Program-made: the position numbers and the translations under genes
Assembly (NCBI GenBank): GCA_963971425.1
Contig: OZ020516.1
Span: forward strand, 15,674,593 to 15,738,592
DNA length: 64,000 nt
Reading direction: 5' to 3'
Source: Bryoerythrophyllum caledonicum
Lineage: Eukaryota; Streptophyta; Bryopsida; Pottiales; Pottiaceae
Shown: one piece after another, positions 27,637 through 55,185 of the stretch
Numbering within the stretch: the stretch's first letter is position 1
Layout of the letters: every line of letters starts with the position of its first letter
Notes under the pieces: generated by a model
What the model was told of the DNA's origin: nothing
Database searches by the model: none
What the model saw: the letters and a program-made list of their open reading frames with translations, nothing else

Positions 27637-30600
27637 TTATTCGCTTGCTAACTCCGTGAGGGTCCGCATGCCAGCTGCTTTGATCAGCTTGCGGTGTTGA
27701 TGTGCGGGTAGAGCCTTCGTAAGTACGTCCGCAATATTTTCTGCTGAAGCAATCTTCTTTGCTTGAATTTGCCGTGTTTCGATTAGATCTTGTGTGTAAC
27801 TAAATAGATGAGGGCTGATATGCTTGACACGGTCGGCCTTAATAAATCCAGAAGAAACCTGTTCAATACAAGCTGCATTGTCTTCAAATAAAGTGATCGG
27901 CTCCTCCTGGTGTGAAATACCGCTCATCTTGAAGATGGTGTAGTGCATTGTGCGGATCCAAACCGCTTCGCGGGATGCTTCGTGAAATGCGACTAACTCC
28001 GCGTGGTTGGTTGATGTGGCCGTGATCGTCTGTTTGGTTGATCGCCAGGATATCGGCGCTCCGTTCTTGATGAATACGTAGCATGTCTGAGATTTGCCCG
28101 TGGCTGGATCCGTCTTGAATCCGGCGTCGGCATAGCCGGTGATGGCGCTGGACTTGGTTTTGTGGAAGTGGAGGCCGAGGTCTGTCGTCCCTCGCAGATA
28201 CCGTAGGAGATGCTTAACTCCTCGCCAGTGTCTATCGGTTGGCTTTTGATTGTGGCGAGCAAGCACGCTGACGGCGAAGGAGATATCGGGTCTGGTGTTG
28301 GTCGCCAAATAGAGTAGCGCTCCAACAACTGCTAAATACTTGGGCCGATCCACTTCCTCTTCCTCCTCTTCTGCTGGCCGATAAGGGTCCTCGTCGGTGC
28401 GACTTTTCCCGATCATTGGGGCGGACAGCGCGTTGGCGTCGGCCATGTTGAAGAGCAGCAAAAGCTTCTTTACGTAGGTCTGCTGATGTAGAAGGATGCT
28501 TCCATCTGGATAGTGTTGAATTTGCAGGCCAAGACAAAATGAAGTACGGCCTAGCACTTTCATCTCAAATTTGTCTGTGAGTAACTTTTCAACTCGTGCG
28601 CTAAGCGCTACGGTGCCTATTGAATTTAAATCATCCACATAAACTGCAAGAATTACAAAACCCGTCGTGTCTCTGAGGACAAATATGCACGGAAGTGCGG
28701 GGTCATTTGTAAATCCCTGCGACAGTAGGTAGGTTTTGAGATGGTGATACCAAGCTCGGCCGGCTTGTTTCAAGCCATAAAGTGCCTTTCTGATCTTGAG
28801 ACCAGAATATTTTCCAGGGATAGGCTTGGTTTGATCGGGGAGAAATCCGGGAGGGGGCTGGATATGGATTTCGGCGTCTAGGTCGCCGTATAAGTATGCT
28901 GTCACCACGTCGAGCAAGCGGGTTTCTAAGGAAAGCTGGACGGCTAAGCTTAGAAGGTAGCGGAAGGATGTACTATCCATAACGGGGGAGTAAGTTTGTT
29001 CGAAGTCTATGCCGGGTTTTTGGGTGAAACCCTGGGCGACTAATCTTACTTTAAATCTGATGACTTCCCCTAGGTCGTTTCGTTTGCGTGTAAATATTAG
29101 CTTGTGTCCAATTGGTTTATCTAGCAGATTGGTCACTAGTGGTCGGAAAACTCCTCGTTTTCTAAGGGAACTATATTCTGCTTCTATGGCTTTTTCCCAC
29201 TGGGGCCATTCGTCACTCTTTTGGGCCTGTTTTAATGTAAGGGGATCTGAGTCCAGGGTCGCAAGACTTGACAAAAACATTTCTACGTCGTCCCAGGGCT
29301 GTTCTAGTTCGGTGTTTAATACTGTGGGTGCCCGGGAACGGGGTGTATGGTTTAGTTTCCGTTTCTTAACGGGTTCTGATGCGGGATTTCCTGATCCGGG
29401 GACCGGGCTACGAACTATCCGGGGACCGGAGTAGAAGCCATCTGGGATCTTCTCGGCGAGGTTCTGGAGATTTAAAATCTTTCTAACTTCTGAGTCGGTT
29501 AACGCCGTACGAGGATCTGGATTCAGGGTCAAGGTTTCTGGTGATCTAAAGTTTAGATTGCTATGTTTGGTTTTGGTTTGGGCACTCGGGAATCTAGTTT
29601 CTATGAACTTACAATTCTGGAACCGAGCTTTGTGAATATCATCTCTATTGATCAGTTTATATCTAATAACACTGGGGGAATCATAACCAAGGTAAATCCC
29701 TCGATTTCTATGAGGGGTGATGGTTTTCTGTTGGGGTTCGGGGGCTGGGATCCACACTTCGCAGCCAAAGGTGCGGAGGTGGGCTACGTTCGGTGTCCGA
29801 CCGGACGCCATCTCGAGGGGTGACTGTGTGAGTAATAGTGTGGGTCTTAGGCGCAGCAGGACGGCCGCGTGTAAGACGGCGTGACCCCAGAACTCAGGTG
29901 CTAAGCTAGCGTGTATTAGGAGGGGCCTAACGATCAGTTGGATCTTTTTGATATAGGCTTCTGCTAGTCCGTTTTGTGAGTGCTCGTAAGGGGCTGAATA
30001 TGTGAGTGATATACCAGTTGCGGTGCAAAAATCCTCAAAAGCTTGTGATTTGAACTCTAAGGCGTTGTCCATCCTAAGAAAACAAATCTGATTATCGGGA
30101 AAATGGGTTCTAAACCGGATAATCATAGCTAGGGTTTTAGGAAAAACCATGTTACGGGTTGTGAGCAGGGAAACCTCAGCATGTCTACCCGATGCGTCGA
30201 CCAAGACAAAGAAGTACTGGAACTGACCTGATTTTGGGTTGATCGGCCCACATATGTCACCGTGGAGCCGATGCAGCGGGGCGGGCATTTCTGTCGGGAG
30301 CGTCCATCGCGACGGTTGGCGGATGAGCTTGCCTTGTATACACGCCGCGCACTCCTCTACGCGCTCCGCGTCCCGTGTGCAGAGGTCGTGACCGACTAAG
30401 GTCGGGACCATTTTTCTCATCATGGTCGTCCCAGGGTGCCCCAGCTGGCGATGCCAAACATCAGCCTTCGTGCTGGTTGTCAAAAAGGACATCGGCACCC
30501 CTTTCAGGGGTAGGCATGGGGATCTACGTCCGCCATCCTCTTCCTCACTCTTACGAGCGGGGCTAGGTACAGCGCCAACAAGGGGCAGCTCGTACAGGCC

Positions 30601-31350
30601 GGTGGCTCCCGCGTGTGCGGTGGCAAGGAGTCTCTCGCCTTGCCGTAGCTCGAGGACCTCATCATCAATTCCTACCGCGGTAGAAACGTGGATTTGATTG
30701 GCCCGTAAATCCCGGTAGCTGATCAGACTCCGGGGGGCATCCGGGACATACATTGCCCTCTTGCAGGTGAGGGGGGCTCCCCCGGGCAAGACTATGTTTG
30801 CCCGGCCCTCGCGGAATTTAAAGGTCCGCTTGCCTACGATGGTGATTATATCACAAGTTTGCCACGGCTCGTTCCTAGTTCTGAACTCAAAGAACGCCGG
30901 GTCCTGGAGAATGGTGTGAGTGGACGCACTGTCTAACAAAGCAACTCTCGCTTTGCTAGGTTGTGACCCAAACTGTACCATATAGTTTTCTGGGTCGACA
31001 TCGTTTAGCGTAAGGGAGGGGGCATCGAGAGTATGGGTTTCTCTCTTTCCTTCCCTTAAGGACTTTAACTCTCTATACATGTCGACGATATATTGTGACG
31101 CTCGACAATCCTTAAGAAAGTGCCCTGGACGACCACACTTGTGACATGACCCTCGCGATCCACTCCCTGATGTACTTGTCGACTTATCGGGTCGATGTGT
31201 GTACCTCGGGTTCTTGTCTGATTGCTGTTGATCACGACGTGGGGGGCGCCAATCGCCTCGGGATCGTCGCCTGGGAGCCTCCGCGCTGTGGGTTTCTCGC
31301 CTGGGGTTTGTCGACTTCGACGGCGTCGTCGAGTTGGGCTGCTTGCGGCT
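27637..31350 (-). CDS. Copia Pol: zinc knuckle, protease, integrase, RT, RNase H
   Basis: The frame stays open from the codon after the Gag stop (31350) to the stop at 27637. A CX2CX4HX4C knuckle lies at 31146-31105. The protease has LLDSASTH in place of the usual DSGA. The integrase shows WHRQLGHPG with downstream Cys pairs, then HGDICGP, MDNALEF and the catalytic Glu in HSQNGLAEAYIKK. RT carries YVDD (28641-28630). RNase H has ITGYADAGF, TNHAELVA and FEDNAACIEQ. The first Met in the frame is at 31080, downstream of the knuckle, so expression most likely needs Gag-Pol readthrough. No internal lesion is visible. Confidence 0.95.
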   Translation of the reverse strand, partial: SRKQPNSTTPSKSTNPRRETHSAEAPRRRSRGDWRPPRRDQQQSDKNPRYTHRPDKSTSTSGSGSRGSCHKCGRPGHFLKDCRASQYIVDMYRELKSLREGKRETHTLDAPSLTLNDVDPENYMVQFGSQPSKARVALLDSASTHTILQDPAFFEFRTRNEPWQTCDIITIVGKRTFKFREGRANIVLPGGAPLTCKRAMYVPDAPRSLISYRDLRANQIHVSTAVGIDDEVLELRQGERLLATAHAGATGLYELPLVGAVPSPARKSEEEDGGRRSPCLPLKGVPMSFLTTSTKADVWHRQLGHPGTTMMRKMVPTLVGHDLCTRDAERVEECAACIQGKLIRQPSRWTLPTEMPAPLHRLHGDICGPINPKSGQFQYFFVLVDASGRHAEVSLLTTRNMVFPKTLAMIIRFRTHFPDNQICFLRMDNALEFKSQAFEDFCTATGISLTYSAPYEHSQNGLAEAYIKKIQLIVRPLLIHASLAPEFWGHAVLHAAVLLRLRPTLLLTQSPLEMASGRTPNVAHLRTFGCEVWIPAPEPQQKTITPHRNRGIYLGYDSPSVIRYKLINRDDIHKARFQNCKFIETRFPSAQTKTKHSNLNFRSPETLTLNPDPRTALTDSEVRKILNLQNLAEKIPDGFYSGPRIVRSPVPGSGNPASEPVKKRKLNHTPRSRAPTVLNTELEQPWDDVEMFLSSLATLDSDPLTLKQAQKSDEWPQWEKAIEAEYSSLRKRGVFRPLVTNLLDKPIGHKLIFTRKRNDLGEVIRFKVRLVAQGFTQKPGIDFEQTYSPVMDSTSFRYLLSLAVQLSLETRLLDVVTAYLYGDLDAEIHIQPPPGFLPDQTKPIPGKYSGLKIRKALYGLKQAGRAWYHHLKTYLLSQGFTNDPALPCIFVLRDTTGFVILAVYVDDLNSIGTVALSARVEKLLTDKFEMKVLGRTSFCLGLQIQHYPDGSILLHQQTYVKKLLLLFNMADANALSAPMIGKSRTDEDPYRPAEEEEEEVDRPKYLAVVGALLYLATNTRPDISFAVSVLARHNQKPTDRHWRGVKHLLRYLRGTTDLGLHFHKTKSSAITGYADAGFKTDPATGKSQTCYVFIKNGAPISWRSTKQTITATSTNHAELVAFHEASREAVWIRTMHYTIFKMSGISHQEEPITLFEDNAACIEQVSSGFIKADRVKHISPHLFSYTQDLIETRQIQAKKIASAENIADVLTKALPAHQHRKLIKAAGMRTLTELASE

Positions 31351-32455: not shown

Positions 32456-33081
32456 TGGAGCATAGATCCATACCTTCTAAGTCGTTAGAACTCAGATCTA
32501 ACTCAGATCTGGTGAGAAACCGGGAAGAGCTGCTACCTCTCACAAGTCCTTTCCTCCTTCCCGACCCAGACCCTCCACACGCAAGATTGAGCAAGAGTAC
32601 AACTCATCACGGGCGCCCAACAACAAACTCCAGTCATCTCAGGTTACACTTTATTCATATCATTGTTTTCACACAATATGGCTTTCTTTCAATACACACC
32701 GCACACACAATAGCCTTAACATTACGCACAATCACAGTACTACTAACCCTAGCGCACTCAGACACAACAATAGAGCGAGTGTATCTGTATGTCGCACGCG
32801 GAAGCGCTGGAAAAATCTCTACAGGAAAACGAAAGGAGCAAAGAAACCACTGCGCGCACGCCCACAACAGATCTGCACCATCATCACAACACCAAGGATC
32901 ACCATCAATAGCACTAACCGATCTGGAGCTGGACAGTGAAAAGGAATCAACAGCCAAGCAACAACAACACGAGGGCAAGCCAGACATCAGCGCGAAAAAA
33001 CAAGAATACGGACAAAAAATAAGGTAAGTATATCTATAAAACCCTCAAACCTCCTCCATTACCTCCACAGCTTCACTCCCT
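32456..33081 (+). other. LINE 5' UTR, part after the Copia insertion
   Basis: A 190-codon open frame starts with an ATG formed by the last base of the LTR plus the target duplication, so it did not exist before the Copia insertion and is not called a gene. AGATCT words match 27019-27287. A strong donor-like AAG-GTAAGT occurs at 33024 and an acceptor-like CCACAG at 33070. Confidence 0.5.
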
Positions 33082-34578
33082 ATGCAACAGGATCCCCTTC
33101 TCTCCCTGCAACAGGTCTTCTCTCTCCCCCTGCAACAGGTCTCCTCTCTCCCCCTGCAACAGGTCCCCTCTCTCCCCCTGCAACAGGTCTCCGCTCTCCC
33201 CCTGCAACAGATTCTTTTCCCCCTCGCCCCCCCCCCTTGCACCCTCACCGTCCTTCCCCCCCTCTCCCCTCCTCATTCTGCACCCCTCCCTACCACCCCC
33301 CCTACCTATCAATCACCCACCACCTGGCCAGCCTCCACGTACATAGAACACCGAGTAACCTGCAGTACTCCCCATACCTGTCCCACAGTCAATAGAACCC
33401 CTCCGCCCAACCCCTTCAGCTCAAACCTCCCGACTCGGCAACAATCTCTCCCCAAACCCTCCCGTGAAGAAACCCCACAGACGCAACATCAACATTCCCC
33501 TATACCCTCCTGCAGCTTAACTTCCCAGACTGAGCAGGTGACCCCCCCCAAACCCTCTTGCGACACAACCACACCGACACAGCACCCAACCTCTCAGAAA
33601 ACTTCGGGACCCCCCCGCAACTTTACTCCCCAGACTCAACAGCGAACCATCGCTAAACCCTCCCAAAACGAAGCACCGAAGACAAAACAACAGGACCTCC
33701 AATACGCAGCCCCGAAGACACGCCAACAGGATCTTCAGCGCTCCTTGAGGACGAGCGGGAACGGACTCGTCGTCCACACGGCGGCAATCTCCTGCGAACC
33801 AACTTCCCCAACAAAGCCTCAGACCCCCCCATTCCTCAGGAACACCGCAGACACTAAACCCACGACCCAACTCACTAGGAACCCATTACAGGAAGGAGGA
33901 TCAGGCCCAACACGAAAAGAACCCTGCGACATTACCCAGGTAACCAAACCCACCTGCGACACAAAAGAAGCCAACGACTGCCAACCAACTTCCCTGATAT
34001 GCCGCACCTGTAAGGTGCTGCAACGTGCCCACCTCTACACAACCACACAAGAGCGCCGCGCAACCAGGCTGAGGCCTAAAACAAGCAAATCCAACGACCA
34101 CAGCCGCCGAGTAACCCTGCTGCAGACTGAAGTGAAGACAACCAACGACTACTCCCGCCGAGCCACCCAACCACAGCCTGTAGTAGATAGGATACAGCAC
34201 TCCCGCAACCAAAAACAATACACCTGCACCCAACGTTCAAATCCAACGTTGGAAACGCGGTGCATCCCACAGGGAAGGAAACGCGACGCAACTCACAACA
34301 GGGTAGGGAACGCGGCGCATCCCACAGACCAACATCCCCCGCCAAAATCTGAACCCAGTCACCCACGACCTTCCCTCCCCTTTTCGACCCACCCCCTAAA
34401 CCCACTACCTCCCCTCTCTAACACTCCCAGCTACACCCCTGCTGCCCCCTTACGACCCCCTCCCCCTAGCACAACGACCTTCCACATTACTAGCGACCGC
34501 CCCCACCTCTACTTTCCCCCCCTCCTCATCAAAACAATTACCCCCCCAACCCTACAACCTACTTTAAACATCACTTAA
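33082..34578 (+). CDS. LINE upstream ORF, 498 aa, Pro/Gln/Thr-rich low complexity
   Basis: A 498-codon frame runs from an ATG at 33082 to 34578. It starts with about five tandem copies of an eight-residue unit (LPLQQVSS-like, 24-bp period). It continues as Pro-, Thr-, Gln- and Lys-rich sequence with scattered CxxC pairs (CRTCKVL near residue 312). No known domain is seen and it is predicted to be disordered. It lies just before ORF1 in the same direction with an 11-base gap to the next open frame and 83 bases to the next ATG. C-rich composition could keep the frame open by chance, so its reality as a protein is uncertain. Confidence 0.5.
   Translation: MQQDPLLSLQQVFSLPLQQVSSLPLQQVPSLPLQQVSALPLQQILFPLAPPPCTLTVLPPLSPPHSAPLPTTPPTYQSPTTWPASTYIEHRVTCSTPHTCPTVNRTPPPNPFSSNLPTRQQSLPKPSREETPQTQHQHSPIPSCSLTSQTEQVTPPKPSCDTTTPTQHPTSQKTSGPPRNFTPQTQQRTIAKPSQNEAPKTKQQDLQYAAPKTRQQDLQRSLRTSGNGLVVHTAAISCEPTSPTKPQTPPFLRNTADTKPTTQLTRNPLQEGGSGPTRKEPCDITQVTKPTCDTKEANDCQPTSLICRTCKVLQRAHLYTTTQERRATRLRPKTSKSNDHSRRVTLLQTEVKTTNDYSRRATQPQPVVDRIQHSRNQKQYTCTQRSNPTLETRCIPQGRKRDATHNRVGNAAHPTDQHPPPKSEPSHPRPSLPFSTHPLNPLPPLSNTPSYTPAAPLRPPPPSTTTFHITSDRPHLYFPPLLIKTITPPTLQPTLNIT
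33096..33213 (+). repeat. 24-bp tandem repeat, about 5 copies
   Basis: The unit is CTCTCCCCCTGCAACAGGTC plus four variable bases, repeated about five times with few changes. It encodes the LPLQQVSS-like repeats at the start of the 498-aa frame. Confidence 0.85.
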
Positions 34579-34661
34579 CTTCCAATAGCTTGCCTCTAAC
34601 TTCTCCCTCTCCATACCCGAACCATCCCACCAAAAACATTAGTAGAGTTAGACAAAATTGC

Positions 34662-36788
34662 ATGAGTTCTGGAGGTCGAAGCCAATCTACCCCCCGTAAA
34701 ACCATTGGAAAAGATAGTGGCGTAGACACATACCGAAAGACCATTAGTGGAGAGCGACAAGTAGCCCCCGTAAACAATCCACGCCCAAGACAAGACAAAT
34801 CCACCAAAGCCTCTAGAGTAGAAGCCACACCTGTCAAAACAAGACCATTGGCTAAGAAGAAACTAGATACTCAAACTCAGAAACGTGACCTCACCCCCAA
34901 ACCACGGGGTAGAAAGAAGAAGACCTTGGAAACCAACACCACCCCACTCCAACAACACCCTGAGCCCCTAATTCATCTCTTAGACGACCAAGAGGAAGGC
35001 CCTATTACATTCTCTAGAACAAGCCAGAGGCGGTGTAAAACCTCATCCCTTCCCTTATCTCCTGACCATATAAACAAACTCACCTACGACAACCCCTGTG
35101 ACACCATGGAGCAACCTCAAAAGGAGCCTAACACCACCATAGAAGCCATGGACATAGAGAACGGGGAAACCAACCCCAAGATGGCTTGTAAGGACAAAAC
35201 CTCCACCCTCGACCCCCTAGAAGTACAACACCCTGCTAAAAAACAAAGAGGTAGCACCCCAAACCCAAACCCAAGCAGTAGCACCCCAGAGCAATCCACG
35301 TTCCATTTCTGGCTAGGCTTTCCCAACATGGAAAAGCTTGCGAAGGACGCAAACCTAGACCCACTATTTAGTGGAGAGAGCGTATCTGACATGATGCTCA
35401 GAGGAGTACCCAAGTCAGAGGCAGAGGAAGCCATAAGTGCTACAATCTCCTACCCCAGAATTCCTCAACTGTTATATCCTAGGGTAAGAGAGGACGGTGT
35501 TGTGGGGCAACACTATAACCTCACACAACTACCATTTGACATTGCCACTAATCCCGAAACCGGTCTATCGTATGACTTTCATGTAGCCATCATGTTCGAA
35601 CTACCTAAGACCCCACTATTTCACGATGACGTGAAAAGACTGGCTAGAGATAGACTCACTAAGATGGACATCCCCCTTGGTACCAAACTTTTAGATCCCC
35701 TTGCCATCCAGTGCAAAGGAGTGAAGAAGGAAGGGCAAAAACATATCTTCTCAGGATTGATAAAGTTGCACCTCCTCAATCCCGAAATTGATGCCATCTC
35801 CCTACTCAAAGGTACAAGATATTTCATGTTGCAACTTGACCCTATGGGACCAGTATCCCTGGGTAAAGTCTGCAAAACATGGCATGCAGTAGCCCGACAA
35901 GGCTTATCCGTCAACATCAAAAGTGACAACCTGTGTGGTATTCCTACACACACCTTGTTTCATAACGTGGTTCTGAACGGCTTTTCCCGTAATCTTGAGT
36001 TTGAAGTCACTGATGTCCAGAAACAGGAAAAGGAGCCATTCGCATGGATTGTGGCACCCACCCCCACCCAAGCGAAGAAACTAGCAATGCACCAGATTAC
36101 GACCTTCCATGAAATCATCCCCGCGAAACCCACCAACTCTGGAACCTTTACAACCACCGACAGGGCCAAGAAGGATGCGCTCACACTCACACTATCTCAA
36201 CTACCAATATTACTGAGCGTGGTTGAAACCACGGAGGCCATCACGAAAGCATTGGAGGCCAAGAACATTGTGAACATCTGGTTCCACCGGCAGATTAGTG
36301 GCAAACACAATGGCTCTGCCAATGTGCAAGTCGCTAATCCTATTGTCTATAGACAATACCTAAACCAAACCTTCAACATAGGTTGTCACCAGGTGGAGAT
36401 TCGACCCCACCGCCGTAGTCTTGATGGCATTGACCCCCCCTCCACCACTTTGGTGGAAAAATGGGGATTCAATGACATAAATACCGCCTTGGTGAACACG
36501 GTTGCCGCCATCAACCCCACCACCGTTCCCACCACCAACATACGCGAAGAGATGGCCGCTATTGTGGCAGATGACCACGAAAAAATCCGCTTGGAATTAT
36601 CAACTTTCAAGAAGGATATCATTCGAGAGACTCGAGAATATACCGATGCCCGCAACGCCGAGGTATACTCAAAACTTGATGATGTTGAGAAGCTAATGAG
36701 TGCCGCATTGTCTGTGATGAAGGGTATCAAATCCAATCGAGAAAAGCCATCCCTCTCCTCCTTGGACGACCCGTCAAACGTGGATTGA
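34662..36788 (+). CDS. LINE ORF1 (gag-like nucleic-acid-binding protein), about 708 aa
   Basis: The frame is open from 34590; the first ATG is at 34662. The N-terminal 110 residues are basic with a KPRGRKKK nuclear-localisation-like run. A Ser/Pro linker follows, then a folded region from FHFWLGFPNMEKL onward. Near the C-terminus a stretch with NIVNIWFHRQISGKHNGSANVQV resembles the strand pattern of an RRM-like fold. It is followed by a likely coiled coil (EEMAAIVADDHEKIRLELS onward). RRM plus coiled coil is the plan of L1-type ORF1 proteins, which coat the RNA; this assignment is inferred from pattern only. The TGA stop (36786-36788) overlaps the open frame of ORF2. Confidence 0.65.
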   Translation: MSSGGRSQSTPRKTIGKDSGVDTYRKTISGERQVAPVNNPRPRQDKSTKASRVEATPVKTRPLAKKKLDTQTQKRDLTPKPRGRKKKTLETNTTPLQQHPEPLIHLLDDQEEGPITFSRTSQRRCKTSSLPLSPDHINKLTYDNPCDTMEQPQKEPNTTIEAMDIENGETNPKMACKDKTSTLDPLEVQHPAKKQRGSTPNPNPSSSTPEQSTFHFWLGFPNMEKLAKDANLDPLFSGESVSDMMLRGVPKSEAEEAISATISYPRIPQLLYPRVREDGVVGQHYNLTQLPFDIATNPETGLSYDFHVAIMFELPKTPLFHDDVKRLARDRLTKMDIPLGTKLLDPLAIQCKGVKKEGQKHIFSGLIKLHLLNPEIDAISLLKGTRYFMLQLDPMGPVSLGKVCKTWHAVARQGLSVNIKSDNLCGIPTHTLFHNVVLNGFSRNLEFEVTDVQKQEKEPFAWIVAPTPTQAKKLAMHQITTFHEIIPAKPTNSGTFTTTDRAKKDALTLTLSQLPILLSVVETTEAITKALEAKNIVNIWFHRQISGKHNGSANVQVANPIVYRQYLNQTFNIGCHQVEIRPHRRSLDGIDPPSTTLVEKWGFNDINTALVNTVAAINPTTVPTTNIREEMAAIVADDHEKIRLELSTFKKDIIRETREYTDARNAEVYSKLDDVEKLMSAALSVMKGIKSNREKPSLSSLDDPSNVD

Positions 36789-39700
36789 TCAAAGACCGCC
36801 CACGAACTCTTCAACAACATGGTGATCACCATACTCCTACATATCCAGCTACATATCCCGTGATAGTCACATCTTTCTCTAGTACACCATATATCTACTT
36901 CACTACTCCCCTTTCCCCCCACCACCGGATAGCATTGTTAGTGATACATCTCACTAGAATCACTTCTTATCACTCTCTCCACATACCTATTACTTTCACC
37001 ACCCTCTCTACACCCTCTACCTCCCTAGAATTTGTTACAACTTTCTATAGGTATCTCCTTGTAAACACATGTCATGGATATGAGTATAAACCCATGAGAA
37101 GGCCACAACCTCCCTCATGGGCTCCTCTAACCCTTATGACAAAGTTACATGATCAAAACCACCACAAAAATATACACACTTTTTGCCATTGCCAATGGCA
37201 TTGGCATATTACTAAAATTTCCACTACCACACACATACCACACATCAAAAAACACAAAACAACACCACAACCTTGCCAAAAACAAAAACAACTAACCACA
37301 AATAACACATATAGACAACATCACACTTCATCACCAATAGATTACCAAACAATACTGTTACCTACCACATTCAGCCAAATACCGGGCAAAACCAAACACC
37401 AATCACAAAGTACGCCACCACATATATCTATCACCCAAAAAACTAAACACCTCCCCCACTCACACACTAACACAAACACATATCCCCCAAAATCAATACA
37501 ACGCACACCACAAACATACTACACCGACCCGTCATACTACACCAAGTACACACACACCCATAACCAAACCCCACACTTGTTAATTACAACAACAACTAGT
37601 CCACAATATACTCCAATAACAAAAAACACAACTCCATCAACACCCCAAAAATGGCCCACAAGTAAACCAACCAAAATAAAAATAAAAATAAAAATAAACA
37701 ATGAAAAAGAGATAGACACCATCACCACAAGGAAAAACAAAATACCACACATTAATACAAAGACAAAAACATCTAAAAACATGCATACAATCACCACCCC
37801 TCCAGTAACTAGAAACACAAATACTCACACAACATACCCAACCAAAGATCCACACACACACTCAAACACACATAATCTAAAAATAATAAAAAAGAAACAC
37901 CCAAAACACACACACAAAACAAAATCTCCAAAACACAACACCAAAGCCAAATACACAAAACTCCTATTGCTCCTAGGGGGAGACATAGAAGCCAATCCAG
38001 GACCAATGCCTAACATATTAAAAACACATCCCTCATCACATAAGAAAAATGCCAAAATATACTTTATACCAAATACCATAATATTGCATCCAGAATACAA
38101 ACACATCGCCCGAACATTTGCACCTCTCTTAAAAACAACACATGCACTGCATCATACACACAACACCACTCACCCAAATATTGCCCAATACATACAACAA
38201 CAAAATATCCACCCACCAACACACATATTATACGCTCTAGTAACGACCACACATCCAAACATAGATGAATGTAACCATCTTCTAAACCTACAAAACCCGA
38301 ACGTAACTACATGGACAAACACACTACTACAAACTTTATCAAATCTACAAAACCCACCTGAAAGACATATTCACACCCCACACCCACTTACAAAATTCCT
38401 TGAAGAAAACCAAAATATCATAAACCATGGAAAATCAATACACAAAGAATTATACAACTTCATACATAGCCAAACCATACCACCCTCAAGTAATACAATA
38501 AAACAACAATTCCCATACCTCCCTAACAACCTAATCAACGAGACACTAAAATGCTATGACCCCATCACAGATTACACCCACCCGCCCCCTCTCCCCCTCT
38601 TCCTCCCCCCACAAAATCAAAACACTAGCACACACAATGACAATACAAACATCATCACATGGAACGCATCATCCCTCAACACCGCTCTCCCTAGCCTAAA
38701 AACTCTAACCACATATACAGCAACACCACCGGCCCTAATAACCATTCAAGAAACAAAACTATCAGCAACAAAATCTATAAAATACATACAAAACACATTC
38801 CAAGACTATAAACTTATCTTTAATAACACACACACAATAACGAGATGTATCCTACAACGAAGACCATACACACCGAGTCGTGGAGGCCTCCTCACACTAA
38901 TACACAAAAAATATGCCTTCCCGGGCAACATAAAAAAAATCCCTACCCCGATGCACATATCTCCCTACCTTCAAATAATAAAAATTTCTAACCAACCACT
39001 ACAACCTTGGATAATCTTTCACATGTATATGCCATCTCACCCTGATGATACTAGATTTATCATAGACATACAAAACAATATAACATCACAAATAAATCTA
39101 AACCCAAACCACACTTACTTGTTATGTGGAGACTTCAACAGAGACATAGCATTAATTGGTAGACAAAACGGAAATCATATCACCCCCCCTCAAAACATAG
39201 ACTACCAATGGCGGCACTTTACAGAAAGCCTAAACTTCACCTACGTAAAAACTGACACCCAATACTCTAGACAAGGCGGCTATAACTATAGTGACTAGAG
39301 CCTAATAGACGGCTTCTACATAAACACAAATCATAATACACATTACACCTCCACTACAAACATAGACATTATTCTCAACTCGGACCACTCGCCAATACAA
39401 CTTCACATCCCAAATAATATACTAATAAGCCGTACTCCTATAAATAAAAATAATACTACTAAACGTATACTCAACCCTATCCCAAAAGACAACTTAGAAA
39501 AATTCAACACAAAGTTCTTTGAAGAAAACTCCATAGAAATAGACTCTCTCATAAACATACTTGAGAATAATAACCAACTCACTCAAACACAATGGCATGA
39601 AGCATGCCATACCCTAGATACACTCACCAATAATATCTCTAATACAGTGGAACAAACTTGCAAAGCCCAACCAATACCACAAATGACAAACCGAACATTA

Positions 39701-42700
39701 CAACAAGGAGGTTATTTACCCCGTAAACTCTCCAAAATCTGGAAACAACACCTAACTACATACCATATTATACGTAAAACTATCAGAACGGTAAAAAACA
39801 ACCCACAATGGCGTAATCATCCCATATGTAATGAACTACTAGCTTTACACCACACCCAAATACCGTCCCCACCTCCCCCGGAACTTCCCCATGATACATG
39901 GATAAAAGACATTGCACTAATTGCAAAAAATGCCAATACTCAAGCTCGGAAAGTAACCACAAAATATTCAAAAGACAATATTAAAAAAGCCATATCAAAA
40001 TACAGACAATTATACGAAACCAGTCCTAAGCAAATAAATAGAAAAGTTTTTAAAAAACTAGAAAGTCCACCACTAGACTGTATCACCAACCAACATAATA
40101 ACATTCTAACTAGCCCGGAAGACATTGCAAACGAAATATATAACCAACAGACAAAAAACAATAGACCCTCAGTACCAACATGCAACTACCAACCACAACA
40201 CACAATCAAATGTACATGTGCAGTACGTCAATATCCATGGCATGACCTCGACGGATTTACACTAGACAGACGAGGTGAACCTGACATACCATTACACACA
40301 TACTTCAATAGAGCTATATATGACACATGTCTCCGTAACCTCGGAAACAATAAAGCTCCAGGACCAGACTGCATACCGAACTCAATACTCAAACATATGC
40401 CCCCAAGATTTCATAAATTACTATTTCTATTCTTTTCCCATTGCTATAAACAAAAACAAATACCAGCCTCATGGAAAACAAGTGCCACAATCTTATTATA
40501 CAAAAAAAGGGACCCCTCAATTCTACCAAATCACAGACCGATTGCATTAGCCAACACAACATACAAACTATTCACTAGTACACTCACCTCTATACTATCC
40601 TCATACGGTGAAAAATTTAAAATTCTACACGATAGCCAAGAAGGATTTAGAGCAGAAAGAAGCACCTCTAGACAAATACAAACTATAATAGCGGCACTAG
40701 AAGACGCAAAATTCACAAACCAAGATATATATGTTTTATATGTAGACTTCAAAAATGCATTTGGCTCTATAGATCACGCCCGTCTATTAGCAATAATGAC
40801 TGATGTTGGATACCCTAAAGACGCAATTACACTAGTTGGAAATATCTACTCCCAATCATCCACTTACTACACAGGTGAGCACTTTGGCAAAACTAAGTCC
40901 ATCCCCATTCATAGAGGTACTATACAAGGAGACACCCTTAGCCCATACCTATTCATTATATTCTTAGAACCACTACTTAGATGGCTAGAGCGAGGAAACT
41001 ATGGATATACTTTTGGTACTTCACAAATAACCATAAACTCCGCCGCATACGCCGATGACCTTGCTACCATAACTAACAAAATTAAATCACTACAAACACA
41101 AATTGAAAAAATAGATAGATATTGTAAATGGACTGGCATGGATGTTGGTGTACCAAAATGTGCTGCTACTGGATGCCCAAATAAATCCAAAATGAACCCA
41201 ACTACTTTTAAAGCCCTAATGCAAGCCTCTAACATTAACTACCGTGGTCAACCAATCCCCATACTACACCAAAATGAATCATATGTATACCTAGGCACAA
41301 ACCTTGTCCCCTCCCTAAAATGGAAAATACAAACACATGTCACAACCACAAAACTCATTAAACAATGCAAAGAATTAACAACATGCCCGGCCACTATGAA
41401 ACAAAAAATTAAAATGGTTGACACAGTAATACGCCCAGGAGTAGCATACAGCTTTTACGCTGTACCGTACTCTATGCCAGCCATTAAAAAACTTGACCAA
41501 AAAATTATAGCCATACAAAAAACTATATGTGGAATGCCCAAATGCATGTCAAACGCAATAACCCAACTCCCACAAAATCTATTTGGACTTGAAGCTTTCT
41601 CCCTCAAAAATGCCTACCTACGATGTATAGGGGAACAATTACAAAACGCCTTAAATGACAAAGGTAGGCTCGGGAAAATATATAATGGGCTAACCCATTA
41701 CGTTCTTGCCCAATACGGAGGTGCCAACAATATACCTAGAATTAAAAAAACAGATTGCATAAGATCACCAATAACCCGTACACTCTTCCTATTAAAACAC
41801 GTAGCTAAAGTTCACCTAAGAAGCACACTCCCAGAATTCCTTTTTAACACCACATCATTAGAAACAGCATGGCAACAAGAAACACAAAACCATAACACAC
41901 TCAACAACCAACTATCCCAAAAACTTTTACACAAACTCTTATCAAAAAACATCTTTGAATTAAAACAAATTACTCTACCAAATGGCACACACATCATGAA
42001 CAATGAAGACTTCAAAACCTTTCACTTCACTCCATCCAAACTAATCAAGAGCGCCCTAAAAGTTGCCAAACAACTTTTTTGCCATCCAACATGCCCTACC
42101 ACATGTAATACCTCTTGCAACATACACCCATACACATACATACTCCAAGACCCATTCATCACCATCAACAACAACATCCTCCCAAGAACTACCCTACCAC
42201 CAATACATCCCCCCAACCCTCTACATCCATATCACCCCCGCCCCCCAACATACATCACCAAAAATCCTACCACATACCCCATCAATAACATCATTCAACA
42301 TAAACATATACAACATACAGATTCCAACAGAATACAAAATACCTTCACAAAATACCTATGCCAATGGCAACATGACAACAATACATTCAATAAATGGCTA
42401 CATCAAAGAAATCTCTTTCCAAGACACGACTGCAACACCTCCACATACAACACCGAAAAACTAAAACAATATTATCAAAGAATTCAAAATAAACTTTACT
42501 CGGAAATCATACAAGCCCACCACCCCCAAGAACAATTACAAGACTCAAGATCAGTAACCCCACCTATAATTATCCCACTCCTAAACATTTATACAACGGA
42601 ATGTAACCCCGAAAAAGATATTATCACAATCACGAACACAATTACAATAGAAAACAATCAAGCCCATCTATATGAAACAAATGGTAGACATCTCCACACT

Positions 42701-45029
42701 ATTCCCACTACTAGACTCCAATGGCTATGGAACCAATACAATTTGAAACTACAAACCCCTACAAACATTGAACCAACAACACAACCATTCGAAACCGAAG
42801 TAATTTGGTTATACCAAAGATATAAATACCGCATCCCAAAAAATAACCCCCTCAAAAGTGCACAATACACAATACCCACACCTATTCTAGACTCATTAAT
42901 CTCAACCTTTAACATAGAACAATCATACTTCTCCTCCCCCGTCACATGCTCCACCAAATTAAAAAAATTCTACTCACCCTTCGAAAGAGATAAAATATTT
43001 GGCTCCTTGGGAAAAGCCTTTGACTATAAATGGGCAGGTAAAGGAATAGCTCATCCCCACAATGAGGAAGAAACACAACAAGCACTACACTGGGCCCGTC
43101 TGGCTGCCAAAAATGATCCACAACACACAACTACACTCATTATCACACCAGACAAAAATTGGTACCAAACCGTTAATCCACAACCAAGCCCATTTGCAGA
43201 CTCCCATATCATTGCTACATTTGAAGCAGACACACTTTCATACAAAGAACCCACTATCCCACCTGAACTAAAAAAACCCCGAATTGAACCATCTACATTA
43301 CAAGTAATATGCGTCCACCACCAAAACCAGACCCTTGGCACCCTAGAACAGCTCGCCGAGCTCACAGCCATAGCAAAAACTCTTAATATAAACCGGCTAC
43401 ACACAAAGATGGCCATGCCAACACCTATACCAACACTCGTAAACAAAAACAAAAAATGGGCAAAATTAAAGCACAACAACAACACACTAGATTACATGTT
43501 ATTACCCCCACCCCTCCCAAACTATCAAACTACCACCTCACCAAAATTCGACCCCGCATATAGCTACTATACCGATGGCTCCTTTAAACCTCCAGAACAG
43601 GTTAGCCCGGGCAACTGGCGCAGAGAAAAAGCAGGCTATGGAATATTCAACCCTAATAAAGAAATCAAATTAGCTAAAAGACTCCATGGATTACAAAATA
43701 TCCTTAGAGCTGAACTCATGGCCATCCACAAAACACTAGAAATTATCACAACAAAATACAACAATGAGCCAGCACATATATTTACAGACTGTATTAACGC
43801 ACTCTATTTATTAAATACTCAAATTACACACCCTACCCTTCACAATAGCCACCCCGACCAAATCATTCTAAAATCTATGATCCGAATGATACTAAAACGA
43901 AGACAAACCACAACCATCCACAAAGTTCGAGCCCACGCTGACATTTATGGAAATGAACAAGCGGATAAACTAGCAAAAGAGGGCCGAGAAAAATCACACA
44001 AAAATGCTAAAGACCCACACGAACATGCCCACGCCACCCCATACTATTTCCAAAAAGAAGATTGGCCCTCCAAAGAAGACACCCCCGATAAAGGCCCGGT
44101 TAGATTCCTTGAGCAAATACCTCAAAAAACAAGACCTATATAATAACCTAGACACAATCTCAGACAACTTCCCTAACATAGAAAAGTGGACTCACAACAA
44201 CAACATAGACAATGAACTATCTACAAATTTCTGGAAAAATCCCATCATCACCGACTCACAAATAACATGCCTTATTAAATTCCGTACCGGACAATACATG
44301 GGAAACGCCCGAAAACAACTCTTCTTTGGAATAGAAAGATTCCCATCCATAACATGTCCAATATGCACATCCACAGATCCCGACACATGGCTACATATTT
44401 TACTTAAATGCCATAACCACCATATACACTCCCTAATTGTCAAAAGACATAACAAAGCCGTATGGGAAATCCGTAAACTTATCACCTCCCACCACAATTC
44501 AAGATGTTTCATCCTCATGAATGCCGGCACCTTTAACAACAACCCACAAGAAAATACGGTCCCCCCATGGCTACTCCCATGTACATGTAATACTCAACGA
44601 TGCCACTGCAATGCTCGACTCAAACCAGACATACTATGTGTTAGAGGCCTACCATTTAATGACCCCCCACCCGACCACATCAACTTAGACTACACGATTC
44701 AATTCATCGAGTTTACATTTTGTAACGACAGATTTTCCCCTGAAACAATCAACAACAAAATAAACAAATACCAACCCCTTATTGATGACATCACCGCCCT
44801 TGGATGGAAAGTGGACCCCCTTATGGTAATCACTGCCGGCGCCCGCGCCACTACCTTTATCCCATCTATTAATACCCTAGAAGATACCTTCAAAATCCCT
44901 ATTACAACAGTTACCAACACTTTCAAGAATATTAATGTCATTGCCATTCAACACGCCATGTCCATCCTTTTACATAAACGAAAAATTGAAAACAATCAAG
45001 CCCTTCCCGACATGTCAGACCCTCCTTAA
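36785..45029 (+). pseudogene. LINE ORF2: 2A, APE endonuclease, RT, spacer, RNase H, CCHC, PD...E domain (two breaks)
   Basis: The frame is open from 36785; the first ATG is at 37094. A Thr/His/Lys-rich leader ends in the 2A motif at 37961-38005. The APE endonuclease follows: NIITWNASS, QETKL (Glu at 38750), GDFNRD (39128), LIDGFY and NSDHS (39380). RT has NNKAPGPDCIP, the YVDFKNAFGSIDH block and YADD (41048-41059). A ~700-residue spacer with no known domain follows. RNase H has TDGSF (43571), RAELMAI, TDCINA and GNEQADKLA. A CPICTSTDPDTW...C finger (44355) comes before KPDIL (44622) and FIEFT (Glu at 44709). Breaks: TAG at 39296-39298 inside the endonuclease and a +1 insertion near 44106, after which the last 300 codons lie in another frame. 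Confidence 0.9.
37961..38005 (+). other. 2A-type ribosome-skipping motif (DIEANPGP)
   Basis: Codons 37961-38005 encode five hydrophobic residues, Gly-Gly and DIEANPGP, matching the DxExNPGP consensus exactly with the usual Leu-rich run before it. In known 2A peptides the ribosome fails to join the final Gly and Pro and releases the upstream product while continuing. Here it would separate a basic Thr/His-rich leader (about 300-400 residues) from the endonuclease-RT protein starting with Pro. 2A-like motifs are known in some non-LTR elements such as trypanosome L1Tc and sea urchin CR1 elements. Confidence 0.85.
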
Positions 45030-45243
45030 AAACTATCCCCTTTTTTCTTTGCTCCTTTGAAACTTTGTGGTTGGTTAGGTTCTTTTGTCCTTGGCTGCTT
45101 GTTACATAGTGTCTACCCTCGAAAGGGGGAAGTAGTTCCAGCTAACTAATTCCCTGTCCGGTGGGCACGGTCTTAGTAGTGGAACGAACAGACACTTTAT
45201 TCACGCCGGCTTCCTTCGGAGACCGGCGTTCTTCTTCTTCTTC
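45030..45243 (+). other. LINE copy 2 3' UTR with conserved hairpins and (TTC)n tail
   Basis: From 45100 it matches copy 1 (5215-5357). Conserved parts include the GAAA-capped stem CCCTC-GAAA-GGGGG (45116-45129), GTTCCA/TGGAAC pairing and a terminal stem CGCCGG...CCGGCG before TTCTTCTTCTTC. The target duplication starts at the next base. Confidence 0.7.
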
Positions 45244-46357: not shown

Positions 46358-46474
46358 TTATCAACTAAAATAACAATTAACTGGAGAGCAGGCTGAATTG
46401 AATCTCTTTTTCATCCAGCACTAGATGAACATCTACCTCGATGATTAATTAGGGCAGGAGCCCCGACTCGACCA

Positions 46475-46738
46475 CAAACCCGTCACTGCACTCTAAACCA
46501 ACCCCTCATCCATAAAATTCCTAGATCACACCCCCAAATCCACGTGAGACGCACATTATGGTGGCTACTCGGTGCAGTGACGGGTTCACATACGCATCCC
46601 TTGCTGTGCAAGGGATTCATACCCCAAACCCGTCACCGCACCGACAAGCTAACAGCATGTGCGCATTACGCGGATTTGGGGGTGCGATCTAGGAACTTGA
46701 TGGATGAGGGGTTGGTTTAGAGGGCAGTGACGGGTTTG
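46475..46738. repeat. Nested inverted repeat / foldback element upstream of the CCDC25 gene
   Basis: Arms of about 85 bp starting CAAACCCGTCACTGC are inverted copies with a few mismatches. A second, inner pair around GGTGCAGTGACGGGTT and its complement repeats the same core words. The element ends 236 bases before the CCDC25 start codon, so it lies in or next to the promoter. No target duplication is evident. Confidence 0.75.
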
Positions 46739-46974
46739 CGGGCGAGAGAGAACGCCCACGTGAAGATGGAGATGAAGCCGGCCTTTTAATTTACACGTCG
46801 TTGAGTGTTTTCGTTGTTGTTGCAGAGTTGTTTGTGGTGCCATCGCCATGTCCGCTCGGGGCCGCGACCAGGGGAGAGCGCGCACTGCAACCGCGACCGC
46901 CTGCTGCTGCTGACGCTCCGACGCCGCTCCTCTCTCCTTTTGTCCATTCCCTTCCTCCGCCTCTCGCCGTCACC

Positions 46975-49627: not shown

Positions 49628-51130
49628 TTAATGAGACGTTTTCTTGAGGATTTGTTGGAACCAGTAAACTGAGCTTTTGGGAAACCTAGCAAGGCCGTTT
49701 TTGTAATCTACATAGTAAATGCCGAATCTAACAGTGTAGCCAACTGCCCATTCAAAGTTGTCCAGGAGAGACCAAGCGAAGTAACCGCGGACATCCGAGC
49801 CATCTTTGATCGCCAGCAGGACGTTTTGCATGTAATCGTGGTAGTAACGAATGCGTTCCGGGTCCTTCAACTGGTCTGCGAGAGGTAAAGAATCGTCTTG
49901 GTTGGCTTCGTCTCTCCCATTTTCAGTAATGTATACGATAGGGTTGTGGTACCTTTCCCGAATCCAACCCAACAGGCTTCGCATTCCACTTGGATATACG
50001 AATAGCCAGCTTGATGGTGTCGCTTCTCCGATTGGCACGCCGTCTTTTGAGTATGCGCTTCTCACTAATGCTCCATCAGAGCTGTTGTATGTTGTGTAGA
50101 ACGAAGAATAGTGGTTGATGCCGACGAAGTCCTGGGAGCCTTTGACGAGCTCAGCTTCTTCTTCTGTGAACGTAGGCAAATTGGAGCCGAGTCTTGCACG
50201 CATCGAACGTGGGTATTCGCCGAAAAAGATCGGGTCCAAATACATCCCCAAATTCTCATCGATGGCTTCTTGCGCAGACAGAACATCCGTCGGAGAATTC
50301 GCATCAAGAGGCAAGAACCAAGCCGAGTCCGTCGTGATGCCGATTTCACCGTCTTGTTTCTGTTTGAATTCCTTCCTGTAGATATCAACCACGTGAGCGT
50401 GCGACAGCAACGCGTGATGGCTGACAAGATACGGCTCCACACTGGAATTTCCGGCGGAGCAGTTGCCGAACGGCGGTGAGCAACGCCCCGGCGCCTTCTC
50501 GCCTGTTTGATAACCCCCTCTCGAGAAACTGTAGATCTCGTTGAACGTGATCCAGTGTTTCACAGCCGGGCCCCACCTCTGGAAGCAGAACCTTGCATAT
50601 CTTGCAAAAGGTTGCACGATCTCGGCACTCAACCACCCACCGATCGAATCCTCCAGCGCTTGCGGCATATCCCAGTGATACAGCGTGACATACGGTTCGA
50701 TGCCGCGCTCCAGAAGCGTCGCGATTAGGTCGTCGTAGTACTGCACGCCCTCCCAGTTCACTTCGCCGACACCTCGCGGGAAGATGCGAGACCATGAGAT
50801 GGAGAACCGGTACGCGTCCATGTTGAGATCCTTCAACAACCAAACGTCTTCCTTGTATCGGTGGTACTGATCCACAGCAACGTCTCCAGTGGAGTTTCCT
50901 TTCACCTTTCCCAGCTCATGTGAAAATGTATCCCAAATGCTTGGGCCTCTTCCGCCTTCATGAGCTGCTCCTTCATATTGATAAGCAGCTGAAGCTGCCC
51001 CGAATACAAAGCCCTTCGGAAAACTCGATCTCTCAACAGAAGGCGCCTCTTCCTCACCAGCGACAAGTCGAGGAGAAAACAAACAAAGCGCAATGAAGAC
51101 CACCATCAGGGCTTTTGGTAGAGATGCCAT
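49628..51130 (-). CDS. Beta-glucosidase, glycoside hydrolase family 1, secreted, 500 aa
   Basis: A single uninterrupted frame encodes a complete GH1 enzyme. Residues 1-25 form a signal peptide with a hydrophobic core. FPKGFVFGAASAAYQYEG and GRGPSIWDTF are the classic N-terminal GH1 signatures. The acid/base Glu is E198 in ITFNE and the nucleophile is E403 in YITENG; FAWSLLDNFEW near the end lines the aglycone site. Several NxS/T sites (such as NCS and NSS at 223-230) suggest glycosylation in the secretory path. GH1 enzymes release glucose from glucosides, cell-wall oligosaccharides or hormone conjugates; the substrate cannot be read from sequence. Flowering-plant GH1 genes usually have many introns, whereas this one has none. 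A TATA-like box lies about 40 bases upstream of the ATG. Confidence 0.95.
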   Translation of the reverse strand: MASLPKALMVVFIALCLFSPRLVAGEEEAPSVERSSFPKGFVFGAASAAYQYEGAAHEGGRGPSIWDTFSHELGKVKGNSTGDVAVDQYHRYKEDVWLLKDLNMDAYRFSISWSRIFPRGVGEVNWEGVQYYDDLIATLLERGIEPYVTLYHWDMPQALEDSIGGWLSAEIVQPFARYARFCFQRWGPAVKHWITFNEIYSFSRGGYQTGEKAPGRCSPPFGNCSAGNSSVEPYLVSHHALLSHAHVVDIYRKEFKQKQDGEIGITTDSAWFLPLDANSPTDVLSAQEAIDENLGMYLDPIFFGEYPRSMRARLGSNLPTFTEEEAELVKGSQDFVGINHYSSFYTTYNSSDGALVRSAYSKDGVPIGEATPSSWLFVYPSGMRSLLGWIRERYHNPIVYITENGRDEANQDDSLPLADQLKDPERIRYYHDYMQNVLLAIKDGSDVRGYFAWSLLDNFEWAVGYTVRFGIYYVDYKNGLARFPKSSVYWFQQILKKTSH

Positions 51131-53187: not shown

Positions 53188-55185
53188 TCATTCAGCCTTC
53201 TTGGTACTCCTGAAATTCTCTCTCAACTCGGCAAACTTCTTGAAGCACTGGGCTTTGCTCTTACCAGGAACGGCAGCAGCGATTCTCTCCCACCTATTGG
53301 CTGTATCTTTAGGAAAAGCCTTGATAGCTTTCACCAACGCCACTTCCTGCCCCTCCGACCACCCTTCAGCTTCACCGTTGGCAGCTGCTGCACCGTTGCT
53401 CTGAGACTCCTCCGCCGTGCCATTGTCCACCTTCTTCGCACTGCCATTCGCAACCGGAACCGTTTCTTCGCCGTCCTCCCTCGTCGAGAGAGGCGAGTTG
53501 ATCTCTGCCCCTGGCTTCCTCTTCTGCAGGAAAGAATCAAACGCCTTGGACGAGTCTGGTTTCTGCAACAGCACTGTCTTTACGCCTTTAAGAATCTCCT
53601 CCACAGTGCGGTTGGTGCCGATGTAGTTGGCGACCACTTCCCAGCGCTGCGAGGTGCCCTTAGGATACTTGGCCACGGCTTTCCTCAGCAGGTCCACCTC
53701 TTGCTTTGTCCAAGGCCTCTCCTTCTTCTCAGCAACCGGGGTGGCCTTCTTGCCCTTCTCTGCAGTGCCCTTCTTGTTGTTGTTCTCCGCCTGTTTCTCC
53801 GCCTCTGATTTGGTGGGGGTGACGTCTGCTGCGTTGAGAGACGCGCTGGAGTTGACTCGGCTGGGGGTGGAAGCAGCAGCTGAGTCGGAGGAGACGATGG
53901 TTTCCGCTCCGCTGATGACGCTCTTCAGGTAGAGGGTCTGCTCATCAACCTCGACCATCCCCTCCAACTTCTCGCACAAGCCGCGCAAGAGGGCAATCTC
54001 GAGGGTGGTGCAGAAGTTCTCAATGTCATCATCAGAAATTCCACTGTCTTTCTTAGCAACCGCACCGCCAGCCACAGCACGCAACCTGGCTTTCTCCTTC
54101 CGCAAAAGCTTCTTCTCTTTCTCCTTCAGCTTCTTCTGGGCGGACGCTTCTTCCGCGGCTCTCTTCTCTTCCTCCTCTTTTCGCAGTCTTTCCTCCTCGG
54201 CGGCTCGTGCCACTTCCTCCTCCTTGTCCCGCCTCGCCTGGGTCTTGGCCTGCTTCTTCCGCAGCTTCTCGGCCTTCTCCTCCTCCTTCCTGCGCGCAAT
54301 TCTGGGGTCCTTCTTGTACGCGTTCTCCGTCATCAACCTGATGCGAGCGTTCTCCTCCTTCTTGGCCTTCTCCCGCAGCTTCGCGTTCTGCCTCTCCATC
54401 CACCGCTTGTGCTCCCGGCTCTCCGCTTGCTCAAGGTCGAAGTCATCCGCGTGGGGAAACTCTCTCCAGGACTTGAACGTCCACCAGAAGTCATAAAACT
54501 CGTCAACGGCTGCAATGTCAGTGTCGTTGTCGCCAAGCGAGGGAACGGGTTGGATGTTGGACCAGCGCCCATTTCGTGCAAAGACAGGTCCGAACACTTT
54601 GAAGAAGTCCCCGGGCGCACAGTCGCTTGGAATCTCGTCATCAAATTCGTCGATGGAGTCATACGCTCGTCGCTTCACCGGGTCTATAAGAACTTCGTAG
54701 GCTAACTGAATGGCTTTGAAGTGGCGGTCGATCTCCTCCTTCTTGACTTCCTTCTTCTCCTCTGTGTCCTCCAAGAGAAGGAGCGTGGCTTGCTTGTCGG
54801 GATGATGTTTCAGGGCAGCGTCTCGGTAGCTCTTCCTAATCTGATCCTCCGTGGCCAAAAACCTCAGGTGGCTCAGACCAAGAAGAGCATAATGATCCTG
54901 AGTCTCAGGGCCATCTCCTGACTTCTTCTTCCCTTTGAATTGATAAGAATCCACGGAGGGAGACTCAGCGCTCTTGTCTTTCTTGTCTGGAACGGCTTCT
55001 TCTACTTCCTCGGCCTCCTTGTCAACTCCTCTTTGCCGCTTCGCCGCCTCGTGGAAACATATGCCTGCCGGCTCCTGCCCCAGGCGCGGGTGGCACTGAT
55101 TATTCGATGCTACATGCTGTGGCAGCTCCGCTGGAATGTCAGCTGCAAAATAAGTGAGATAAAGCCGGTCCTCTACGCCCGGCAT
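53188..55185 (-). CDS. ZRF1/zuotin-type J-protein (DNAJC2/MPP11 family), 665 aa
   Basis: One frame without introns. A J-domain lies at about residues 95-180 (DHYALLGLSHLRFLATEDQIR; HPD at 128-130). The zuotin homology region follows (FDDEIPSDCAPGDFFKVFGPVF and FYDFWWTFKSWREF), then a long highly charged helix rich in Lys, Glu, Arg and Ala. Two SANT domains end the protein, at about 490-545 (RPWTKQEVDLLRKAV) and about 607-655 (EGWSEGQEVALVKAIKAF). The family pairs with Hsp70 at the ribosome exit tunnel and, through the SANT domains, acts on H2A-ubiquitin chromatin; the Volvox relative GlsA controls asymmetric division. The start at 55185 gives the usual short N-terminal arm. All domains look intact. 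Confidence 0.95.
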   Translation of the reverse strand: MPGVEDRLYLTYFAADIPAELPQHVASNNQCHPRLGQEPAGICFHEAAKRQRGVDKEAEEVEEAVPDKKDKSAESPSVDSYQFKGKKKSGDGPETQDHYALLGLSHLRFLATEDQIRKSYRDAALKHHPDKQATLLLLEDTEEKKEVKKEEIDRHFKAIQLAYEVLIDPVKRRAYDSIDEFDDEIPSDCAPGDFFKVFGPVFARNGRWSNIQPVPSLGDNDTDIAAVDEFYDFWWTFKSWREFPHADDFDLEQAESREHKRWMERQNAKLREKAKKEENARIRLMTENAYKKDPRIARRKEEEKAEKLRKKQAKTQARRDKEEEVARAAEEERLRKEEEEKRAAEEASAQKKLKEKEKKLLRKEKARLRAVAGGAVAKKDSGISDDDIENFCTTLEIALLRGLCEKLEGMVEVDEQTLYLKSVISGAETIVSSDSAAASTPSRVNSSASLNAADVTPTKSEAEKQAENNNKKGTAEKGKKATPVAEKKERPWTKQEVDLLRKAVAKYPKGTSQRWEVVANYIGTNRTVEEILKGVKTVLLQKPDSSKAFDSFLQKRKPGAEINSPLSTREDGEETVPVANGSAKKVDNGTAEESQSNGAAAANGEAEGWSEGQEVALVKAIKAFPKDTANRWERIAAAVPGKSKAQCFKKFAELRENFRSTKKAE

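Follow-up and report, generated by a model that had tools for sequence, protein, structure and literature searches.

A conserved and probably functional 2A (StopGo) motif between an open leader and the ORF2 protein of a very large LINE family in a probable land plant

2A-like sequences are known from LINEs of trypanosomes (L1Tc) and sea urchin, according to the available portions of the reports (PMC5972666, PMC4981915). The accessible text of a 2026 survey records no natural StopGo peptide in plant viruses, though the peptide works in plants, and describes an LLLLSG-like class of StopGo peptides composed of L-rich motifs ending in (A/S/C)G ahead of Asp (PMC12846837). With regard to enzymatic domains, excerpts of earlier work state that Dualen carries two endonucleases, one of APE type and one restriction-like (PMC4640811, PMC3636483), and that plant L1 may carry RNase H (PMC4640811). 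Here we describe a LINE located in a stretch of 64,000 nucleotides of DNA, the window. The LINE belongs to a very large family, and its host is probably a land plant. Its ORF2 frame contains a motif that is, with high probability, a working 2A (StopGo) peptide, which would release a leader from the ORF2 protein.

The initial annotation had proposed a DxExNPGP match inside the ORF2 frame, about 300 residues after the first ATG and just before the endonuclease. The match is real: positions 37961-38005 (+) translate in the ORF2 frame to LLLLLGGDIEANPGP, a 2A/StopGo-like motif of the form LLLLLGG-DIEANPG/P whose core, DIEANPGP, agrees with the published 2A core (D/G/C/N)(V/I)ExNPGP. The predicted break site lies between Gly (codon ending at 38002) and Pro (38003-38005). 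Counted from the ATG at 37094, the core Asp is residue 297, as the annotation had placed it; the motif is also upstream of the endonuclease, but adjacency is loose, since the Pfam endonuclease match starts 216 residues past the last Pro. NPGP is unique to this site in all six frames of the window. Throughout the 437 Mb genome, the DxExNPGP codon pattern has 1,730 matches (884+846) versus 4 (3+1) for the reversed pattern. Matches that run on as ATG-MCN-AAY number 810+760, with 0 in the control, and therefore at least nine in ten genomic matches represent one type of site. A chance origin of the motif is ruled out by these counts.

To locate further copies independently of the motif, the genome was searched with the protein downstream of it. 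This search scored 98 of 5,185 first-look candidates, from which the best-scoring 30 loci were taken, window copy included; the same search with the corresponding part of families L008 and L003 returned 86 hits each, and 40 sites were picked from these by choice. Both families originally came from a motif search, and the query stretch itself excludes the motif. NPGP is kept in 66 of the 70 sites located in this way, and the other four differ by one residue (NPGL in L021, NPEP in L024, NLGP in L104 and NPSP in L107). Loss of NPGP in other copies, the outcome that the annotation had named as contrary to its reading, is thus ruled out. Identity of the post-motif protein between families falls to about 55-57%. 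Recently multiplied families keep the 2A as well: among the 98 scored hits of the 5,185 candidates, 15 have a common 2,809-codon open frame and 13 a 3,087-codon one. L004 and L041 each carry two 2A stretches, of which the upstream one is decayed (DMETNPRP and DINTRPN, respectively) and the one adjoining the constant protein is intact; the decayed stretch of L004 is accompanied by about 25 residues of downstream protein.

Selective constraint was assessed on 71 sites (the window copy, L041 and 69 of the 70 motif-independent sites), of which 69 have an unbroken frame and 28 are non-redundant at <93% DNA identity; L015 and L028 were left out because the frame is broken or one codon next to the site is missing. 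Across the 28 sites, pN/pS is 0.048 in the eight codons of the core (pS 0.57, pN 0.03), 0.49 at -22 to -9, 1.36 at -40 to -23 and 0.255 in the eight codons that follow the core; the 91 pairs that are 75% or more identical give 0.04, 0.51, 1.07 and 0.10 for the same intervals. The 2A core is under very strong amino-acid-level constraint, and codons 23-40 upstream are under none. In the window, the constrained stretch extends from -22 to -1 and ends at the final Pro (37940-38005, +). Within the core, all 28 non-redundant sites share D, E, N and the final P, the middle P and the G are each found at 27/28, the I/V position is split 27 to 1, and x is T at 25 sites, K at two and A at one, so that the Ala of the window is a minority state. 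Two decayed sites aside, only x and I/V vary, a pattern that at the level of sequence matches the published 2A core. Ahead of the core, Gly is present at -9 and Leu at -11 and -14 in 26/28 sites each, and position -10 is occupied by C (12), G (9, as in the window) or S (7).

A constraint edge about 22 residues upstream would fit a peptide acting in the ribosome tunnel. The residues past the motif are also conserved (pN/pS of 0.10-0.26 at +1 to +8), as they would be if NPGP were kept as part of a folded ORF2 domain and no skipping took place. We consider this quite improbable, since constraint is stronger in the core than in the residues that follow and stops at about -22; moreover, the position left free to vary coincides exactly with x in the 2A consensus, and the Leu-rich context with Gly at p11 matches known StopGo peptides.

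The motif is preceded by an open leader that extends from the ORF1 stop to the 2A core (36789-37981, +), comprises 397 codons in the 2A frame and is rich in Thr, Lys, His and Pro. Its first in-frame ATG past the ORF1 stop is at 37094, 296 codons ahead of the core Asp, and from there the leader contains 21% Thr, 13% Lys and 10% His, with K+R+H at 25% and D+E at 2%, in agreement with the basic, Thr/His-rich leader that had been described. The 2A frame of the window leader has 0 stops and the other two frames have 24 and 20; dinucleotide shuffles predict 16.6 (sd 3.9), and none of 400 was as low as 0. The leader of L039 is similar, with 0 stops in the 2A frame, 21 and 13 in the others and 18.4 expected. 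Could the leader be open merely through an A/C-rich, repeat-like composition? Some families have (CAA)n leaders in which stops are indeed sparse whatever the frame (L002 has 9 and 3 in its other two), but the other-frame counts of the window and L039, and the absence of any shuffle reaching 0, make this most unlikely as a general account; composition is disfavoured for the A/C-rich leaders and possible for the repeat leaders. Leaders of the remaining copies in the stop test were delimited from stop to stop, which is biased, and were given no weight.

Among 14 distinct copies with a pattern-found ORF1 end (15 rows, since L035 and L039 are the same copy), the leader is open in the same -1 frame in seven; in the other seven it has stops or a changed frame, which we read as decay. 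For four usable pairs, leader dN/dS is 0.55-0.77 versus 0.11-0.14 for the endonuclease part after the motif. Two L017 pairs were left out, their endonuclease values of 0.49 and 0.60 (leader 0.64 and 0.77) resulting from a frame break in L017, as was the almost saturated window-L035 pair (leader 0.35, endonuclease 0.10). In other families, leaders of poly-Q, poly-N, HN or QP repeats adjoin the same 2A. The high dN/dS, the repeat leaders and the decayed upstream 2A copies together suggest that what is maintained in the leader is its readability and not its sequence; it seems to evolve freely yet stay open.

Met directly follows NPGP at 28/28 non-redundant sites, and no ORF2 start codon is conserved within the leader, where in-frame ATG positions differ between subfamilies. 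Both features would be expected if ORF2 began at the ATG right after NPGP, the upstream stretch being untranslated and the motif a remnant. However, an untranslated stretch would not show 0 stops versus about 17 expected, nor would D, E, N, P, G and P be kept at the protein level despite synonymous change (pS 0.57, pN 0.03). The open leader and the core constraint disfavour this ATG as the sole start, and we give such an arrangement very little credence. A leader open beyond chance and amino-acid constraint on the motif argue instead that the 2A lies within a translated frame. ATG-free open stretches upstream of the first Met were also observed in L039 (25-2073, 683 codons) and L041 (2754-4181, 476 codons), with 0 stops versus 20.9 and 18.1 expected.

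A possible point at which ribosomes would enter this frame is the end of ORF1. The ORF1 open frame (34494-36788, +; first ATG at 34662, TGA stop at 36786-36788) is homologous to that of L039, with 67% DNA identity over 1,212 aligned bases, and had no match in a Pfam search. It ends in TCAAACGTGGATTGA (36774-36788, +), 15 bases that two subfamilies share, apart from one C/T difference, in 16 distinct copies. From 36689 onwards the ORF2 frame is open; it is offset by -1 from ORF1, with which it overlaps for 100 bases (124 bases in L039). The near-invariance of the ORF1 end suggests a signal there, on the basis of two lineages. One form of the 2A explanation, differing on where translation enters, is that -1 frameshifting at the ORF1 end joins ORF1 and ORF2 and that the 2A then separates the ORF2 protein from a polyprotein of ORF1 and leader. 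The frame offset, the overlaps and the 15 bases shared between subfamilies all speak for it. We nevertheless regard it as doubtful: by-eye inspection finds no classical slippery heptamer at the ORF1 end, the comparison covers only two deep lineages, a non-ATG start or re-initiation would look alike, and L041, one copy of a second young family, has no ORF1 of at least 200 codons and carries its 5' region in the ORF2 frame. In this 3,087-codon family copy (L041:2754-4994), the ORF2 frame extends upstream into sequence like the 5' part of the L039 ORF1 frame (44 bases, 89%). Separately, the 5' region of the window copy (32560-33030) contains splice-acceptor-like (CCCGACCCAG) and donor-like (AAG-GTAAGT) sequence.

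We propose the following order of events for the 2A model. A ribosome would enter the ORF2 frame somewhere upstream of the 2A and read through the open, little-constrained leader of about 400 codons; at NPG/P the leader would be released and the ribosome would continue. The constant ORF2 protein would then begin Pro-Met-Pro-Asn and comprise an N-terminal region, endonuclease, reverse transcriptase, PCIF1-like domain, RNase H and C-terminal domain. The 2A would thereby reset the N terminus, and the leader need only remain readable. Skipping at the motif is very likely because the motif is conserved and constrained at the amino-acid level, the leader is open and the Leu-rich context is StopGo-like. 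The reading of the motif as a 2A, put forward in the annotation, is thus supported by conservation and constraint; we infer the skipping itself and its efficiency, the production of the leader as a protein and the purpose of the 2A. A tentative extension is that a single land-plant LINE mRNA undergoes two recoding steps, a frame change at the near-invariant 15-base ORF1 end and a 2A about 400 codons later, with a disposable leader in between. If the model is true, the 2A makes the leader a disposable spacer that is free to lengthen, gain repeats or fuse, and the N terminus of the enzyme stays fixed. Present in more than 1,500 copies and under constraint in a single LINE family, the 2A would represent natural StopGo use in a plant lineage. 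The natural variation among these plant 2A peptides would offer material for tests and for plant biotechnology, the decayed copies serving as controls. Whether LINEs use a 2A to free the enzyme from a variable leader also becomes testable.

Downstream of the 2A, the conserved N-terminal region of ORF2 (38006-38653, +; residues 1-216) starts with MPNILK, had no match in a Pfam search and folds poorly as a single sequence (mean pLDDT 43). It is followed by the match region of an APE-type endonuclease (38654-39166, +; PF03372, E 5.2e-05), with the motifs NASSL at 38663, QETK at 38747, GDFN at 39128 and SDHS at 39380. The window copy scores 23.5 bits, just below the 24.5 cut-off, and L041 scores 25.2, above it. 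An in-frame TAG (39296-39298, +) breaks ORF2 of the window copy, which also has a frame change at about 44.0-44.14 kb; this copy is a broken member of a family in which copies with long uninterrupted frames exist. The reverse transcriptase (40505-41248, +; PF00078, E 5.4e-28; YADD at 41048) was compared with solved structures in the PDB, among which R2 gave 3e-34 and 1e-31, human L1 ORF2p 8e-21 and other R2 entries 4e-16, and it is therefore not clearly of R2 or L1 type.

Between the reverse transcriptase and RNase H lies a PCIF1-like domain (42752-43156, +; PF12237, E 1.5e-11, above the cut-off), which aligns to zebrafish PCIF1 (PDB 6irx) with an E of 0.0012; HPHN in the window occupies the place of PCIF1's NPPF. 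In a genome search for this domain family, 150 of 2,614 first-look candidates were scored and all 150 were above the cut-off. NPPF was present in 0 of 29 readable loci (of 30), most having HPHN or HPHT. RNase H (43559-43987, +; PF00075, E 1.2e-12) is followed, in a shifted frame, by a C-terminal region (44064-45026, +) with the sequence motifs C-x2-C-x9-H-x4-C and then KPDIL...IEFT. On the basis of these motifs we suspect it to be a restriction-like endonuclease; searches of Pfam, NCBIfam and the PDB gave no convincing match to this region, and its single-sequence fold was unusable (pLDDT 35). The 3' end (45204-45243, +), common to L040 and L042, consists of a short hairpin, CGCCGG..CCTTCGGAGACCGGCG, followed by (TTC)n; the hairpin is of UUCG type. 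A 133-base 3'-end-only copy was found at L041:2033-2165, within leader-like repeats read backwards; the similar bases on either side of it (TTTGTAGTAT.TG) may represent a target-site duplication. No relatives were found among the viral contigs searched.

Other features of the window include a Ty1/copia-type polyprotein (27637-31080, -; single open frame of 1,147 codons), an inverted repeat with 120-base arms, 86% complementary and 40 bases apart (46467-46746), a GH1 beta-glucosidase (49628-51130, -; single open frame of 500 codons) with plant beta-glucosidases among its best matches, and a Zuotin-like J protein (53188-55185, -; single open frame of 665 codons).

Compared by eye with the LLLLSG-like class as presented in the available text, the peptide described here shares the core D(V/I)ExNPGP, the Gly ahead of Asp and a Leu-rich upstream stretch, with Gly at p11 in 26/28 sites and a Leu-rich hexapeptide as in that class (PMC12846837). 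Unlike the class, in which -10 is A, S or C, Gly stands at -10 in 9/28 sites, the window included; as the motifs of the class end in (A/S/C)G, the Gly variant falls slightly outside the description in that text (PMC12846837). It also differs from the StopGo peptides in the accessible part of the survey in belonging to a retrotransposon of a probable plant and in having a predicted activity (PMC12846837). Like the trypanosome and sea urchin LINEs, as far as the available portions describe them, the element has an in-frame 2A ahead of an APE-type endonuclease-reverse transcriptase (PMC5972666, PMC4981915). It has an APE endonuclease, reverse transcriptase and RNase H in common with Dualen/RandI of Chlamydomonas and other algae, and differs from them in its PCIF1-like domain and 2A, neither of which is mentioned in the excerpts consulted (PMC4640811, PMC3636483).

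Judged by its domains, with APE endonuclease, reverse transcriptase, RNase H and possibly a second endonuclease, the element may be most like Dualen/RandI. With plant L1 LINEs it shares the APE endonuclease and reverse transcriptase; unlike L1, its reverse transcriptase scores R2 first (3e-34, versus 8e-21 for human L1, among solved structures only) and it contains domains unexpected of L1. The earlier description as a plant-type LINE is doubtful if L1 was meant, given these scores and the extra domains. A streptophyte host, probably a land plant, is supported by 31 NAM matches in the genome and by the plant beta-glucosidases among the best matches of the GH1 protein in the window. NAC transcription factors are not known outside streptophytes, and the NAM (NAC) matches fall in about 18 loci. 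A literature search, outside which most subscription papers lay, found no report of a 2A in plant LINEs or in Dualen. In L1Tc the 2A is near the protein start, and a 2A well inside an open frame is unusual beside L1Tc and animal LINEs; unlike in L1Tc and the sea urchin LINEs, the 2A described here is preceded by a leader of about 400 open codons. The presence of 2A in trypanosome and sea urchin LINEs is already known; what is probably new is the combination of a probable land-plant host, a large family and a long, free-evolving open leader.
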